A DNA stretch of 64,000 nt from Clostridiales bacterium. Lineage in GTDB: Bacteria > Bacillota_E > Sulfobacillia > Sulfobacillales > JAIMBI01. The DNA lies in assembly GCA_027318915.1 (NCBI GenBank), contig DAHVOH010000005.1, positions 4,183 through 68,182 on the forward strand. The letters are read 5' to 3'. The notes beneath the pieces were generated by a model. It was not told where the DNA came from and did no database searches. It saw nothing but the letters and a program-made list of their open reading frames with translations. The position numbers and the translations under genes are program-made. Within the stretch, counting starts at the first letter, position 1, and every line of letters starts with the position of its first letter. Positions 57,156 through 63,503 of this stretch are shown here, piece after piece.

Positions 57156-57407
57156 ATGGCCGACATTATCATTTACGGCAATTCCACCTGAAGCGACTGC
57201 ATCGAGGCGAAAGAGTTTCTTTCGCAGAGAGCCATCCCGTTCACGTTCTTCAACGTGGCCGAGGACGAAGCGGCGCGGGAGCGGATGCTGGCCGCCAACA
57301 ACGGGGTTTACGGCATGCCGACCATTCTGGTCGACGGACGGGTCGTCATGGCCGGCGGGGTGTTTCATCCCTCGATCTTCGCCGGCGTAACCCCCGTGAC
57401 CGCATAA
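57156..57407 (+). CDS. Glutaredoxin-like selenoprotein (UxxC), in-frame TGA = Sec12
   Basis: 83-aa thioredoxin-fold protein. The frame from ATG 57156 (AAAGGAG 5 nt upstream) reads MADIIIYGNST, then TGA at 57189-57191, then SDCIEAKEFLSQRAIPF and on through GVYGMPTILVDGRVVMAG to TAA at 57405. TGA stands exactly where glutaredoxins have the first Cys of CxxC, giving U12-S-D-C15; Pro55 in GMPTILVDG is the cis-Pro of the fold. A 7-bp hairpin follows 22 nt after TGA. Predicted to do thiol/disulfide exchange in the cytoplasm with a selenol nucleophile. Ordinary annotation would miss it, because only about 11 and 70 codons lie on either side. Confidence 0.87.
57207..57225 (+). promoter_or_regulatory. 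Bacterial SECIS element of the glutaredoxin-like gene
   Basis: GCGAAAG (57207-57213) pairs perfectly with CTTTCGC (57219-57225) around the loop AGTTT. 22 nt separate the TGA from the loop, inside the window known for bacterial SECIS; G is the second loop base. Being in the coding region, it also encodes EAKEFLSQ. Confidence 0.82.
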
Positions 57408-57440: not shown

Positions 57441-57812
57441 AGATCGGCGCCGGGCGACCCGCCGGGCTAGGGCGGCACCCGCGCTGGCCAGGACCAGTCC
57501 CGGCAAAAACCGCCTCCACAGCATGCCGGTCCCATGCCTGAGCAGCGCCGCGATGCCGAGTCCGATCACCCTCCGAGCCAAACGGGGCGTCCGCCGGACG
57601 GCCGCGATGAGAAAGACCACCGGGACGGCCAAGAGTTCGGGCGACCCGCGGGATGCCGTTGACACCGCAGGGGCCGATACTATGCCCATCATGCCCGCGG
57701 TCGAATGGTCGGCGACGCCGAGAGCCGCCGCCAGCAAGGCGCCCATCATGGCCGAGCCGCTCCCCACGGCACCCGCCGCTCCGATCAGGCCGAACCACGA
57801 GCTGTGCCGAAT
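57441..57812 (-). other. Possible membrane-protein reading frame, start and stop unclear
   Basis: On the minus strand the frame reads WFGLIGAAGAVGSGSAMMGA, LLAVPVVFLIAAVRRTPRLA and GLGIAALLRHGTGMLWRRFL, a plausible two- or three-helix membrane protein. It has no normal start (ATT or GTG only) and no stop before it runs antisense through the glutaredoxin gene. May be a gene remnant or antisense chance. Confidence 0.25.
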
Positions 57813-57910
57813 CCACGGCGCATCCCCCCTTCCCTTTGCCGCCTGAGCGCTCCCCAGCGTCGCTCCCCGAACAAACAGGAACCGGCGCGGCCCAGCGCGA
57901 AAGACATCAC

Positions 57911-59167
57911 ATGTCCACCTATGAGGGTGACGATCCCACATCGGAAATCCCGCCTGATGAACCCCACAACGTCCGCATCAACGCGCTGCACGGCGCCGCC
58001 CAAAACGCCGCGCAGAGCTTGGTCACCCCGTTTTTGGGCATCGACCTGATTCGTCTCGGGGGCACCGACCTGGAAATCGGGTTGCTGAATGCGCTTCCCC
58101 CACTGGCGACGACCCTATCCACCCTGCTCGGGGCCCGCTGGGTGGGGGCACGGCGCCATGCCCGGACGCTCACCACCCTGCTGTTTATGGCGGCACGGGC
58201 CGCCTTTCTCGCTCTGGCGGTGGTCAATCTGCTGCCCCACCGTTGGGCCGCGCTGACCCTCGTTGCCATCATTGGCCTTATGAATGTGCCCCAAGCCATT
58301 TCCCTGGTGTCTTGGCAGGCCATCATCACGGGACTGCTCCGACCCACCATCCGCGGGCCGGCCATGGCCACCCGCACCATGCTGGCCAGTCTCTTCGGCA
58401 TCGTGGCGGTCCTGTTGGGCGGGTGGTGGATCGCCCGCGCCCCCGGCGTCAGCGGGTATCCGGAGCTGGACGTGGCGGCGTGTCTGCTGGCCGGCTTGGA
58501 GATCTTTCTCTTCACGCGGCTTCGCGGCGACCCCCCGGTGCAGACGCTCCCGCCCCACCTGCTGCAGGCCAGTCGGCGCCTCTGGAAGCGCCGACGCTTT
58601 CGCCGCCACATCATAGCCACCCTCCCCTTCTATCTGGGCTGGATGATGGCTTGGCCGTTAATCCTGCGCTACCAGGTGGATGTCGCCCATGCCAACAATC
58701 TCTGGATTGCGCTGTACACCGCCACCAACGCCTTGTCGGCCGCCGTGACGTCTCGCTGGTGGGGACGCATCGGCACCCGCATCGGACCGCGGCTCGCGTT
58801 GCCCCTGAGCATCTTCGGTCTTTCGTTCGTTCCGCTGGTGTACTGGTTTCATCCGGGTCCGCCCGGCATTCTGGTGGCCGAAATGCTGGGGGGCGGCATG
58901 GGCGCCGGCGTCAATATGATGCTCCTGCTCCGGCTCATGGAAGTCACCCCAAGCGGCGATCGCATTTTGGGCATGGGGGTGGCCAACACCTTGATGGGCG
59001 TCGCCGGCTTGGCCGGCCCGCTGCTCGGCACCGCCCTGGCGGTGGTGGTTCCGATCCCGGCCGTCTTCGTCATTCCGTTTCTCCTGCGGCTGTCGGGAGC
59101 CGGAGCTTTGTATGCGGCGCAGCGCTCTCGACAGCGAACCGCTTGGGGCTGGACGCTGCCGTTCTGA
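57911..59167 (+). CDS. MFS transporter between two selenoprotein genes
   Basis: 418 aa, about twelve membrane helices after a 25-residue acidic cytoplasmic start (STYEGDDPTSEIPPDEPHN). ALHGAAQNAAQSLVTPFLGI and LGARWVGARRHARTL are the first helix and the motif-A-like loop. Substrate unknown. ATG at 57911 has a weak site (GAAAGA). It lies between the glutaredoxin-like and CoADR-like selenoprotein genes, 503 nt after one and 84 nt before the other; a promoter-like element precedes the latter, so cotranscription is not certain. Confidence 0.85.
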   Translation: MSTYEGDDPTSEIPPDEPHNVRINALHGAAQNAAQSLVTPFLGIDLIRLGGTDLEIGLLNALPPLATTLSTLLGARWVGARRHARTLTTLLFMAARAAFLALAVVNLLPHRWAALTLVAIIGLMNVPQAISLVSWQAIITGLLRPTIRGPAMATRTMLASLFGIVAVLLGGWWIARAPGVSGYPELDVAACLLAGLEIFLFTRLRGDPPVQTLPPHLLQASRRLWKRRRFRRHIIATLPFYLGWMMAWPLILRYQVDVAHANNLWIALYTATNALSAAVTSRWWGRIGTRIGPRLALPLSIFGLSFVPLVYWFHPGPPGILVAEMLGGGMGAGVNMMLLLRLMEVTPSGDRILGMGVANTLMGVAGLAGPLLGTALAVVVPIPAVFVIPFLLRLSGAGALYAAQRSRQRTAWGWTLPF

Positions 59168-59183: not shown

Positions 59184-59251
59184 AAGCGAGGGCGGTCCGG
59201 TCGTCCAGCCGGAAGCTCGCTGACCGACCGCCGCGGAGAAAGGAGTCCCCC

Positions 59252-60604
59252 ATGGCGCAAGAGCGTCTCATTGTGGTGGGAGCGGACGCGGCGGGGATGA
59301 GTGCCGCCTCCCAGGCTCGACGTCACCGTCAGGATCTCGAAATTTTGGCCTTTGAGCAGGGCGGATACACCTCGTACTCCTCGTGAGGCGTCCCTTACTA
59401 TGTCGGCCAGTTGGTCGACGACATTGACAAACTGGTGGCGAGAACGCCGGCACAGTTCGCCCGCGCCGGAATCTCCGCCCACATCCATCATCGTGTCGAA
59501 GCCATCGACCTGACGGCGCAGCGCGTGACGGTCCGTGATCTGGAGGCCCATCAGACGCGGGCGGAGGCGTATGATCAGCTGCTGCTGGCCACCGGCGCGC
59601 TGCCCATCGTGCCCGACCTGCCGGGCATTGACGCGCGCGGCATCTATGCAGTCAAGAGCCTGGAGTCGGGCAAAGCGCTCCGCGACGCCCTAAAGGCGCC
59701 CGACGTCCGCGACGTGGTGATTGTCGGCGGGGGCTACATCGGCATTGAGATGGCCGACAACCTGGTCGGCCGCGTCGGCCGCGTGACGCTCATCGACCGT
59801 CACTCCGCGCTTATGCCCGCCCTGGATCCGGAGCTGGGCCAGCTGGTCACGGCCGCGGCCCAGCGGTTGGGCGTGACCGTCCGCCTCGACGAGACGGCGT
59901 TGGCCTTCGAAACCCGCCAAGGCTCCGTACGGGCGGTCGTCACCGACCGGGGCCGGTATCCGGCCGACTTGGTGGTGCTGGGTCTCGGCGTCGAACCGGA
60001 CGTGGAGTTGGTCCGCCATGCGGCCATTGCGCAGGGAGTGCGGGGCGCCATTCAGGTGGACGCGCGCATGGCCACCGCCCTGCCCGGCGTGTATGCGGCC
60101 GGCGACTGCGTCCAGTCGTGGGACCTGGTGGGACGACGGTTCGTGTATCGCCCGCTCGGTACGACGGCCAACAAGCAGGGCCGCGTGGCCGGCTTGAACA
60201 TCGCCGGCGGTTCGGCTCATTTTCCCGGCATTGTGGGCACCGCCATCGCGCGGATCGGCGACACCGAAGTGGCCCGTACCGGTCTGGGCGCGACGGATGT
60301 GTCCACCCTGGGATTGGATGCCCTTTCCGTGCGCATCGAGACCCACACGCATCCCGGCTATCTCCCGAACGCCGCGCCCATCACCGTCGGCCTCTGGGGT
60401 GAACGCGGATCCGGTCGACTCCTCGGCGGGCAGATTGTCGGGGGAGCCGGCGCGGGCAAGCGCATCGATGTGCTGGCCACCGCACTGAGCGCGGTCATGA
60501 CGGTGGCCGACCTGATTGATCTCGACCTCGCTTACGCCCCGCCGTTTTCCGACGTGTGGGATCCCGTGCAGATTGCGGCCCGGCAACTGGCTCCGCGCCT
60601 TTGA
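59252..60604 (+). CDS. CoA-disulfide reductase/NADH oxidase-family flavoprotein, in-frame TGA = Sec45
   Basis: 450-aa pyridine nucleotide-disulfide oxidoreductase. FAD site LIVVGADAAGMSAASQARR (residues 6-24); NAD(P)H site VVIVGGGYIGIEMADNLVG (about 154-172); second FAD block VYAAGDCVQ; C-terminal YAPPFSDVWDP, as in CoA-disulfide reductases. In this class a single redox-active Cys sits in S(F/Y)xxCGxPYYxG; here the sequence is SYSS-TGA-GVPYYVGQ, TGA at 59384-59386, i.e. Sec45. A 7-bp hairpin lies 22 nt later. Skipping the TGA gives only a protein starting at TTG 59411, without its flavin-binding N-terminus. Probable role: NAD(P)H-dependent reduction of CoA- or other low-mass disulfides, persulfides or oxygen. 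Confidence 0.88.
59402..59419 (+). promoter_or_regulatory. Bacterial SECIS element of the CoADR-like gene
   Basis: GTCGGCC (59402-59408) pairs with GGTCGAC (59413-59419), including one G-U pair, around the loop AGTT; a further U-G pair may extend it. Exactly 22 nt separate TGA from the loop, identical to the glutaredoxin-like gene, and the loop begins with the same AGTT. Confidence 0.82.
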
Positions 60605-61151
60605 CCGGGCGGAGAGCGGGATGCGGACGACATTCGCCTCCCCGAGCCTGCGGGGCCGCGTTTGTCTCGCGGCCCCCAGTCGCGCGTCTTGGCAGGCGGT
60701 GCGCCCGCCTCACGGGGCTCCGGAGCCTCCACGCTCAACGCGGCCATCCGTGCTGCAGGGAAGCGATGGCCACGCTACGCCACCATCGAGCGGACGCGCC
60801 GTCGGGCGTGGAGTGCGAGGCGTCCCCGGCGGTGCCCGGATCGATGCCCACCGGCGCATCCGCCGCCGTACCCGGGAGTGCGAGGGCCGACCCGCAGCGG
60901 CCGGAGAGAGGTCGGTACCTGGGTAGGGCCTCGCCAACCGGTAGCGTCACGCCGTCTCTACCGTGCCCAGCGACCGGGCCCCTCGCCTTCGGCGTGACCT
61001 TGCCCGCACGGCGCGATCCGCCAGGGTCTTTGGGGCTGGCGCTCGACGCCCGTCCCTGATACACCTGTAGACAGGGATTCCCGGCCGGCGTGGCCGGATT
61101 GTGCGGCCGAGACGGCGGAACCCGGATCCGGATCGAGACAGGAGCGCGCCC
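60605..61151. other. Intergenic region upstream of the methyltransferase
   Basis: About 550 nt with no gene I can support on either strand. Near its right end CCTGT-AG-ACAGG (61064-61075) is a short perfect inverted repeat that may be an operator for the methyltransferase gene. Confidence 0.4.
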
Positions 61152-62603
61152 ATGCTGTCGCCCCCCTCATCGTCCTTCCAAGCCCATTCGGAGTCGGCCT
61201 TGAAGCTGTTTCTCAAGTACGGCTTGGTGACCGATCCCTGGCTGGCGTCCATCAACGGAGACGCCACGTTGGCCACGGACGTGATGCAAAAGGTCGACCG
61301 AACCACGGATGAAATTCTGGCCGAGCCCATCGATCGCTCGATGCTGGGTCCCTGGCCGCTCACCGGGGCCCAGGTGGAGGTCGCCGTCCGCGAGGTTCTG
61401 CTCTCGTCGGCGGCCTTCGACGCGTATCTGCAGTATGGCCGAACCGCGCTGCTGCCCTCCCTGGTCAGCGATGCCGAGCGCCGCGTCAAGTTGCTGGTGC
61501 GAGAGGGCGGCCTGGCGTCGCTGATTCTGGCTTACGGATGGACAGCCCCGGTGGAAAATCTGATGGCGGTCCGTTTTTACCGCCGCATGCGGGAGGACGA
61601 TTTTGTCTCCGGCCGGCTCCATCGCCCGTGGGTCCAGCGCCCCTTGGATTTGGAGCTGGTCACCGGATTGGCCCTGGGCCACTACGAGCTCTTTACGGAA
61701 GACGGCGTGCGTTGGGTCCGCCTCACCCGCCGCGGGCATCAAGCCTGGCACCAGGCGCGCAACCTGTGGGAATCGACGGGCTACGCCCGCATGCGCTCCC
61801 GGCTGTTGATGGTGGCGCAATTTGCCGGTTTGGGCGACCTGGATGAGGTGACCGACACCCTCCTGCCCGACTTTCGCGCTCTGCGAGCCGAGTTCGTCCA
61901 CTACGCTCAGCCGACCGGTCCTCAGGTTTTGGAGATCGGCTCGGGCACCGGCGCCCTGACCGTCGACGCGGGCCTTGCGTGCCACATCTTCCCGGCCCAG
62001 CTCACCTGTCTCGATCCCTCGCGGGTCATGACCGAACGGGCGCTGGCCAAATGCCAGGCGGCCCATCTGAGCAACGTGCGCTTTGTGCAGGGCGTGGCGG
62101 AATCCATGCCCTTCCCCGACGAATCGTTCGACAGCGTGTTGGGCTTCGCCGTCTTTCAGTACACCGACCGGGCGCTGGCGTTCAGCGAGGCGTACCGCGT
62201 GCTCAAACCCGGCGCCTGTTTGACGGTGGGCGTGCCGCTCCCGATGCCGTCTCTGCAGTCTCCTTTGGTCACACGGTGGTTCAAGGCGCTCAAGGAGCCG
62301 TCTTACGGCGACGTGACCTTGTGCGAGCCGGATGACGTCCCCCACTGGGCGACGGCGGCCGGATTTCTTCCGGTCGACCGACGCGAGTTCGACACCCGCT
62401 TGGACCTGAGCCACACGGAACTGACGGTTCGCGTGATGCTGCAGTTTCAAATCTACCGCGCCACTCTCGACCAGATGCCCTATCAAGCCCGCATTGACCT
62501 GGCGGAGGACCTGGTGGGGCGAGGCCGCTACCTTCTGCAGCGTGGCTACGGCGGCGAGATGTCAACCCCGCTGCAATGGACCCGCTGGCGCAAACCGGGC
62601 TAG
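61152..62603 (+). CDS. SAM-dependent methyltransferase with a long N-terminal domain
   Basis: 483 aa. The class I methyltransferase core is in the C-terminal half: motif I VLEIGSGTGALTVDAGL (about residues 259-275), LTCLDPSRVM, VQGVAESMPFPDESFDSVLGF (motif IV region) and LKPGACLTVGVPLP. The first 240 residues are helical and unrecognised (HSESALKLFLKYGLVTDPWL, RVKLLVREGGLASLILAYG), perhaps a substrate or partner domain. ATG at 61152 with GACAGGAG. Substrate unknown. Followed by an XRE regulator. Confidence 0.82.
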   Translation: MLSPPSSSFQAHSESALKLFLKYGLVTDPWLASINGDATLATDVMQKVDRTTDEILAEPIDRSMLGPWPLTGAQVEVAVREVLLSSAAFDAYLQYGRTALLPSLVSDAERRVKLLVREGGLASLILAYGWTAPVENLMAVRFYRRMREDDFVSGRLHRPWVQRPLDLELVTGLALGHYELFTEDGVRWVRLTRRGHQAWHQARNLWESTGYARMRSRLLMVAQFAGLGDLDEVTDTLLPDFRALRAEFVHYAQPTGPQVLEIGSGTGALTVDAGLACHIFPAQLTCLDPSRVMTERALAKCQAAHLSNVRFVQGVAESMPFPDESFDSVLGFAVFQYTDRALAFSEAYRVLKPGACLTVGVPLPMPSLQSPLVTRWFKALKEPSYGDVTLCEPDDVPHWATAAGFLPVDRREFDTRLDLSHTELTVRVMLQFQIYRATLDQMPYQARIDLAEDLVGRGRYLLQRGYGGEMSTPLQWTRWRKPG

Positions 62604-62622: not shown

Positions 62623-62720
62623 ACAGCGTCTGCACGAATTTGCGGGGTCAAGCAGGAAATTCCCTCCACTTCGGGGAACTCTTCAGCAAATCCACAGAGG
62701 AAACAGGGGGCCGACGCTTC

Positions 62721-63503
62721 GTGATCAGCGACCGCATCCGAACGTTGCGCGAAGAGAATGGCATGAGCCAGTCCGAACTGGCGGACAGGATCCCCCTCTC
62801 CCAGAAGCAGGTCTCCCGCATCGAACGTGGCCTCTTCGTGCAGCTCCCGCGCCGCACGTTGGTTCGTTTGGCCGAAGTGCTGTCCGTTCCGCTGGTGACG
62901 GGCGAAGTCAACGACTGGCTCCTGCAGTCCGGTTACGCCCCCTTGATTCGGCCCGATCTGCCCTTGCCGCCGCGCTTGGACGAGTGGCTGGCAACCTCTT
63001 CCTCGCACCCGGTGGCCGTCATGGATCCCGCCGGAACAGTCCGGTACGCCAACCCTCTCTTTGATCGGCTGTGGAGCGCTCAATGCCGGCACACCGACAA
63101 TTTGGTGCTGTGGGTTCTGGACAAGGCGTCGCCGTTGGAGACCCGCGATCGTCTGCGACTCCTCCGCTGGCACTTGGGCGTGCTCCGTTATGCCGCCGGC
63201 GAACCGTGGACGGCCCGGTTCCGCGAGACGGTCCTGAGCCAGGACCCGGATGTCGGGGCACTCTGGGAGAGAGCGGGCCGTCACGCCCTGGCGCCCGCCG
63301 ATTTGTCGGGCGCGCCGGTGCGGGTCGCCCATGCGCGCTATGGTGTGCTGGCCTTTCGCGTCGCCGTGTCGGAGCCCTTCTGGCGGCCCGACTTGCAGAT
63401 CCTCATGTTTCATCCCCACGACCACCGCACGCGGACCTGGTGCCACGAAGGACGCACGCCGCTCCCAGACCTCGCCGCCGACCTGACCGACCGCTCCAGT
63501 TGA
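62721..63503 (+). CDS. XRE-family regulator with MmyB-like ligand domain
   Basis: 260 aa. Residues 1-62 form an HTH: ISDRIRTLREENGMSQSELADRIPLSQKQVSRIERG. The rest resembles the PAS-like ligand-binding domain of MmyB-type regulators: HPVAVMDPAGTVRYANPLFDRLW, VLRYAAGEPWTARFRETVLSQ, and HPHDHRTRTWCHEG. MmyB-type regulators often control antibiotic or stress genes and may bind fatty acids. GTG at 62721 after ACAGGGGG. A TTCCC...GGGAA inverted repeat lies in its upstream region. Confidence 0.82.
   Translation: MISDRIRTLREENGMSQSELADRIPLSQKQVSRIERGLFVQLPRRTLVRLAEVLSVPLVTGEVNDWLLQSGYAPLIRPDLPLPPRLDEWLATSSSHPVAVMDPAGTVRYANPLFDRLWSAQCRHTDNLVLWVLDKASPLETRDRLRLLRWHLGVLRYAAGEPWTARFRETVLSQDPDVGALWERAGRHALAPADLSGAPVRVAHARYGVLAFRVAVSEPFWRPDLQILMFHPHDHRTRTWCHEGRTPLPDLAADLTDRSS

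Follow-up and report, generated by a model that had tools for sequence, protein, structure and literature searches.

Flavin disulfide reductases of the CoA-disulfide reductase kind are generally described as single-cysteine enzymes. Predicted versions that carry selenocysteine (Sec) have also been listed. One Sec-containing 'NADH oxidase' was reported from Geobacter metallireducens in 2006 (PMC1794560), and one from ocean metagenomes was placed under PRK09564 (PMC2398784). A CoA-disulfide reductase/NADH oxidase is named as a predicted selenoprotein family in PMC9312934. PMC13188914 lists an 'FAD-dependent oxidoreductase (CoA-disulfide reductase)', with the model TIGR03385, the motif UGxP and the protein WP_011365774.1, as 'predicted with high confidence'. 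The Sec form of the family is thus already known by prediction. The first-pass annotation of the DNA studied here had implied that selenium was new to the family, which does not hold, as predicted selenium versions have been known since at least 2006 (PMC1794560, PMC9312934, PMC13188914).

The window, a 64-kb stretch of DNA analysed here as a whole, contains a flavoenzyme gene that is a well-supported addition to this known, predicted selenoprotein family. The source for the family, reference 12 of both PMC9312934 and PMC13188914, is presumably PMC1794560. By model name, our flavoenzyme and the family described in PMC13188914 are the same, and its UGVP fits UGxP; it differs in lineage, and the residue after Sec in the 37 TGA loci described below is more varied than UGxP allows. 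The portions available of the deep-Sep paper (PMC12013277) yielded no passage on CoA-disulfide reductase. Within the open-licence literature searched, we found no description of a Sec-glutaredoxin/Sec-CoA-disulfide-reductase pair or of Sulfobacillus selenoproteins. As far as that literature shows, the new points are that a Sec-flavoenzyme has a Sec-glutaredoxin as its neighbour, that the Sec form is present in the class of Sulfobacillus, and that a divergent clade exists in which UETP predominates.

The flavoenzyme reading frame has 451 codons, which give 450 residues and a terminal TGA (Table 1). Its translation agrees with the first-pass annotation, which had described one frame from ATG 59252 to 60604 broken only by the TGA at 59384. 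This triplet (59384-59386) is the sole in-frame internal stop and forms codon 45, in the peptide context SYSS-U-GVPYYVG. We consider it very probable, from the sequence comparisons below, that UGA 59384 encodes Sec45 and that the protein is a flavoenzyme of the CoA-disulfide reductase/NADH oxidase family; the substrate is outside this judgement.

Table 1. Features of the selenoprotein locus, in window coordinates.
Feature	Position	Strand	Remark
Glutaredoxin-like gene, predicted second selenoprotein, MADIIIYGNSTUSDC...	57156..57407	+	83 residues; PF00462; TGA in relatives
TGA of glutaredoxin, predicted to be read as selenocysteine, U12 of UxxC	57189..57191	+	TGA in window and six relatives
SECIS-like hairpin of glutaredoxin gene, GCGAAAGA-GUU-UCUUUCGC	57207..57225	+	stem-loop comparison
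MFS transporter ORF, located between the glutaredoxin and flavoenzyme genes	57653..59167	+	PF07690; true start probably further in
AAGGAGT, ribosome-binding-site-like, 5' of the ATG	59240..59246	+	read from sequence
Predicted Sec-containing FAD/NAD(P)-dependent oxidoreductase, CoA-disulfide reductase/NADH oxidase type	59252..60604	+	450 residues, U45
TGA of flavoenzyme codon 45, predicted to be read as selenocysteine	59384..59386	+	relatives have Cys in the same column
SECIS-like hairpin of flavoenzyme gene, GUCGGCC-AGUU-GGUCGAC	59402..59419	+	TGA-to-loop 22 nt; fits bSECIS rules in PMC13188914
Methyltransferase-domain protein	61101..62603	+	syntenic in G097, G098
Helix-turn-helix regulator-like ORF	62640..63503	+	syntenic in G097, G098; matches weak, all below cut-off

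In Pfam, the protein is a pyridine nucleotide-disulphide oxidoreductase (PF07992, score 193.8 against a gathering score of 26.1) and also matches PF02852 (38 against 25.3). It aligns over almost its whole length with the Cys-type CoA-disulfide reductases and NADH oxidases of known structure (PDB 6ruz, 3cgb, 5l1n and 3kd9), with which it shares the FAD and NAD(P) domains. With C entered for residue 45, this position aligns with the cysteine of 6ruz and 3cgb, the two structures compared at residue level, and two C-terminal tyrosines (in GYLPNAAP and LAYAPPF) align with tyrosines of 3cgb. The UGxP motif is present as U45-G-V-P. The flavoenzyme differs from these two structures in having Sec45 where they have Cys, and the earlier placement of the TGA at exactly the family's Cys codon is borne out. 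We take position 45 to be the catalytic, redox-active cysteine of the CoA-disulfide reductase family. Sec45 would then substitute for the sole catalytic Cys of an FAD enzyme. By analogy with the Cys family, NAD(P)H would reduce the FAD, the reduced FAD would reduce either a selenenylsulfide such as Sec-S-CoA or an oxidised form of Sec, and the selenolate would attack the next substrate.

The likeliest substrates would be CoA-disulfide, CoA-persulfide or polysulfide. We give a little under an even chance to the reading that Sec is correct but the enzyme is something other than a CoA-disulfide reductase, namely an NADH oxidase/peroxidase, a polysulfide/persulfide reductase or a reductase of the Sec-glutaredoxin. 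The NCBIfam cut-offs for CoA-disulfide reductase are missed (414.4 against the equivalog cut-off of 578.8 for TIGR03385, and 403.4 against 458 for NF007123), among the solved structures the best match carries the name NADH oxidase and another is called CoA-persulfide reductase, and a glutaredoxin gene lies directly upstream in the relatives G097 and G098. However, the CoA-disulfide reductase models are the best NCBIfam matches and cover nearly the full length, and both tyrosines and the YAPP(F/Y) segment are retained.

Codon 45 was compared in 77 loci (the window, L001-L016, L033-L062 and L127-L156), all of which except L012 cover the codon. Of these 76, 41 have TGA and 35 have Cys (TGC 33, TGT 2), which answers a check proposed in the first-pass annotation, whether homologues have TGA or Cys here. 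None of the 41 TGA loci has a further stop in its aligned part (for L013, aligned residues 4-54 only). The removal of six same-genome duplicates left 37 distinct TGA loci, the window included, and 33 distinct Cys loci, so that TGA occurs at this codon in 36 distinct loci besides the window. The residue after Sec in the 37 is Gly in 17, Ser in 10, Glu in seven and Ala in three. L013, which comes from a low-coverage metagenome contig, has a frame shift shortly past codon 54. In a search of the 154 genomes of the class, one TGA was seen in 11 of the best 14 matches (50-59% identity) and none in three; the remaining matches among those listed had no internal stop. When 395 genomes were drawn from the phylum to which G155 belongs, 24 of the 55 matches listed at E 1e-95 or better had one TGA. 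All 24 of these were taken into the comparison and only six of the 31 other rows, so the Sec:Cys ratios given here are not frequencies. Three full-length database proteins, 55-57% identical to the flavoenzyme (P0003, P0004 and P0009), have Cys at the Sec position. A scan of viral_contigs found no relatives.

A SECIS-like hairpin follows the TGA of the flavoenzyme gene and spans 16-33 nt past it. According to the rules given in PMC13188914, a bSECIS element has a loop of 3-9 nt, a stem of 4-16 bp, an MFE of at most -7.5 and a G within the first two loop positions, and it lies 16-37 nt from the UGA. The hairpin lies within these ranges, with a 7-bp stem, the loop AGUU (second base G), a distance of 22 nt and -10.2 kcal/mol. 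With L013 excluded, all six of its core pairs form in each of the 28 main-clade TGA loci, and no Cys locus out of 33 has the full set. The outer pair in these 28 loci is G-C in 19, A-U in seven and G-U in two. In a second clade of TGA loci (L144-L151), a different stem of seven pairs, capped by a GGN loop, is seen in 8/8 loci; this stem also forms fully in one of the 33 Cys loci. This conservation is partly circular, because both stems were derived from these same sequences, and the hairpin of the flavoenzyme gene sits within a conserved peptide stretch. The folding energy of the hairpin stretch is lower in the 37 TGA than in the 33 Cys loci (p 2e-9, kinship ignored). Shuffles of the window sequence alone showed a mildly better fold than expected (z -1.65 for 47 nt and -1.35 for 45 nt), and z was -4.24 for the 18-nt hairpin itself, a segment picked post hoc. 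For comparison, a similar stem-loop with other loop sequences is located after the TGA within the motif SGUGCKL in 13 of 15 selD loci; the script found no such site in the other two, L109 and L120.

No sel genes or tRNA-Sec were found in the 64 kb, and an Rfam scan of them gave no match at gathering scores. We surveyed the Sec machinery in 16 relative genomes, 12 of which carry the TGA form of the flavoenzyme. A selB match above the cut-off is present in all 16, selA in 14 (missing in G097 and G101, and interrupted by an in-frame TAA in G001) and selD in 15 (missing in G006). ARAGORN identified tRNA-Sec with a UCA anticodon in 11. ARAGORN did not classify four other candidates, L030 (52.6 bits), L031, L032 and L085, as tRNA-Sec. 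A confirmed selC is lacking in G002, G003, G006, G097 and G123, which is not proven absence, because scoring covered, in each genome, 150 candidates out of the several hundred from a first look; a selC search at E 1e-7 gave no match in G097 or G123. G097, the closest genome by enzyme sequence, thus gave no selA or selC match. G098 carries selA, selB, selC and a TGA-containing selD. In a search limited to the class, the MutL of the window was 62% identical to that of G098 and 61% to that of G097. Across the class, selD was found in 108 of 154 genomes, and in the class of G001 every listed selD match except two itself contains one TGA. On this comparative evidence, SelB and tRNA-Sec would decode UGA 59384 as Sec45 in this organism too, guided by the hairpin at 59402-59419. 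The TGA/Cys column, the hairpin, the Sec machinery of the relatives and a second Sec gene nearby all support the earlier proposal that Sec45 replaces the family's Cys.

That the TGA is a true stop, arising from a nonsense mutation, a pseudogene or a sequencing error, was considered and rejected as very improbable. What speaks for it is that the close database match, P0002, is only a downstream reading frame of 397 aa, 99% identical to the flavoenzyme, with a start that matches the first TTG past the TGA in the window. Since its start lies downstream of the TGA, P0002 contains neither the active site nor the first segment that binds FAD. However, it has at least one substitution relative to the window (Val for Ile), and this, with its start just past the TGA, suggests a second assembly with the same TGA. 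The otherwise open aligned parts of the 36 other TGA loci, the conserved hairpin and the Sec machinery in relatives all argue against a true stop. The first-pass annotation had expected gene callers to leave a flavin-less stub; as P0002 is the downstream piece, a short N-terminal stub is not inevitable. Routine annotation can nevertheless miss such genes, the database entry being a stretch of 397 residues that does not include the active site. A 393-aa relative, P0098 (61% identical), also starts just past the Sec position and may be a further Sec gene that was called too short. We likewise rejected, as having hardly any chance of being right, the reading of TGA as another amino acid (Trp by a changed code, for example, or Cys), since both the flavoenzyme gene and the preceding MFS ORF terminate in TGA, SelB, tRNA-Sec(UCA) and SelD occur in relatives, the codon-45 column is exclusively Cys or TGA in 76 loci, and a SECIS-like element lies downstream of the TGA in the TGA loci.

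Unexpectedly, the flavoenzyme has a probable selenoprotein neighbour. The glutaredoxin-like gene lies 1.85 kb upstream, and the hairpins of the two genes have AGUU at the tip in common. The Sec codon of the glutaredoxin is also TGA in six relatives (G093-G098), each with a stem-loop downstream, the loop sequence being different in G093-G096. Among more distant glutaredoxins of the class, some have the TGA and some do not. PMC13188914 lists a Sec-glutaredoxin (PF00462) with UxxC, and the upstream gene is likewise a UxxC glutaredoxin; here it adjoins a Sec-flavoenzyme, a pair that the operon section available of that paper does not name. In G097 and G098 the glutaredoxin directly precedes the Sec-flavoenzyme, with its aligned part ending about 140 nt before the flavoenzyme gene, and the downstream order of methyltransferase and regulator is common to the window and both genomes. 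G093-G096 keep the glutaredoxin and have no flavoenzyme match at E 1e-60, so the pairing is not obligatory. The Sec-glutaredoxin may be a partner of the flavoenzyme. A full relay that passes electrons from NAD(P)H through FAD and Sec45 to a (CoA-)thiol or Sec12 of the glutaredoxin is a tentative and rather unlikely proposal. If true, selenocysteine would replace both attacking thiols, in a selenoprotein pairing for which we found no description. The adjoining genes make this redox partnership directly testable.

A tree was calculated from 68 full-length rows (36 Sec and 32 Cys); L013 and L014, the latter broken into pieces, were left out. In the alignment Sec was entered as X and Cys kept as C, and the trait column is thus partly still present. 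The window groups with G097 and G098 (support 100/99). The Sec label needs five changes on this tree, at least four of them forced by well-supported branches. All eight loci of the divergent clade L144-L151 have TGA and are Sec forms, with YGxUETPYxIG in seven and YSAUSEPYYIG in L150; this clade possibly represents a separate gain of Sec. The window falls in a 13-row clade with Sulfobacillus-type loci, made up of 10 Sec and three Cys forms. The Cys forms (G104, G006 and G007) are nested among the Sec forms, a pattern which suggests Sec-to-Cys conversion within this clade. Sec at this flavoenzyme position therefore recurs in two distant bacterial groups and apparently became Cys inside one of them, and a natural Sec/Cys series is available to test what selenium gains a flavoenzyme.

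Remnant SECIS-like structures are reported in some Cys homologues in PMC1794560. The nested Cys locus of G104, L040, retains five of the six hairpin pairs and is possibly such a relic of conversion; the Cys loci L014, L051 and L056 likewise reach five pairs, so the evidence for a relic is weak. The broken pair of L040 falls on the third base of a Val codon, which is GTC in the Sec relatives that have Val there.
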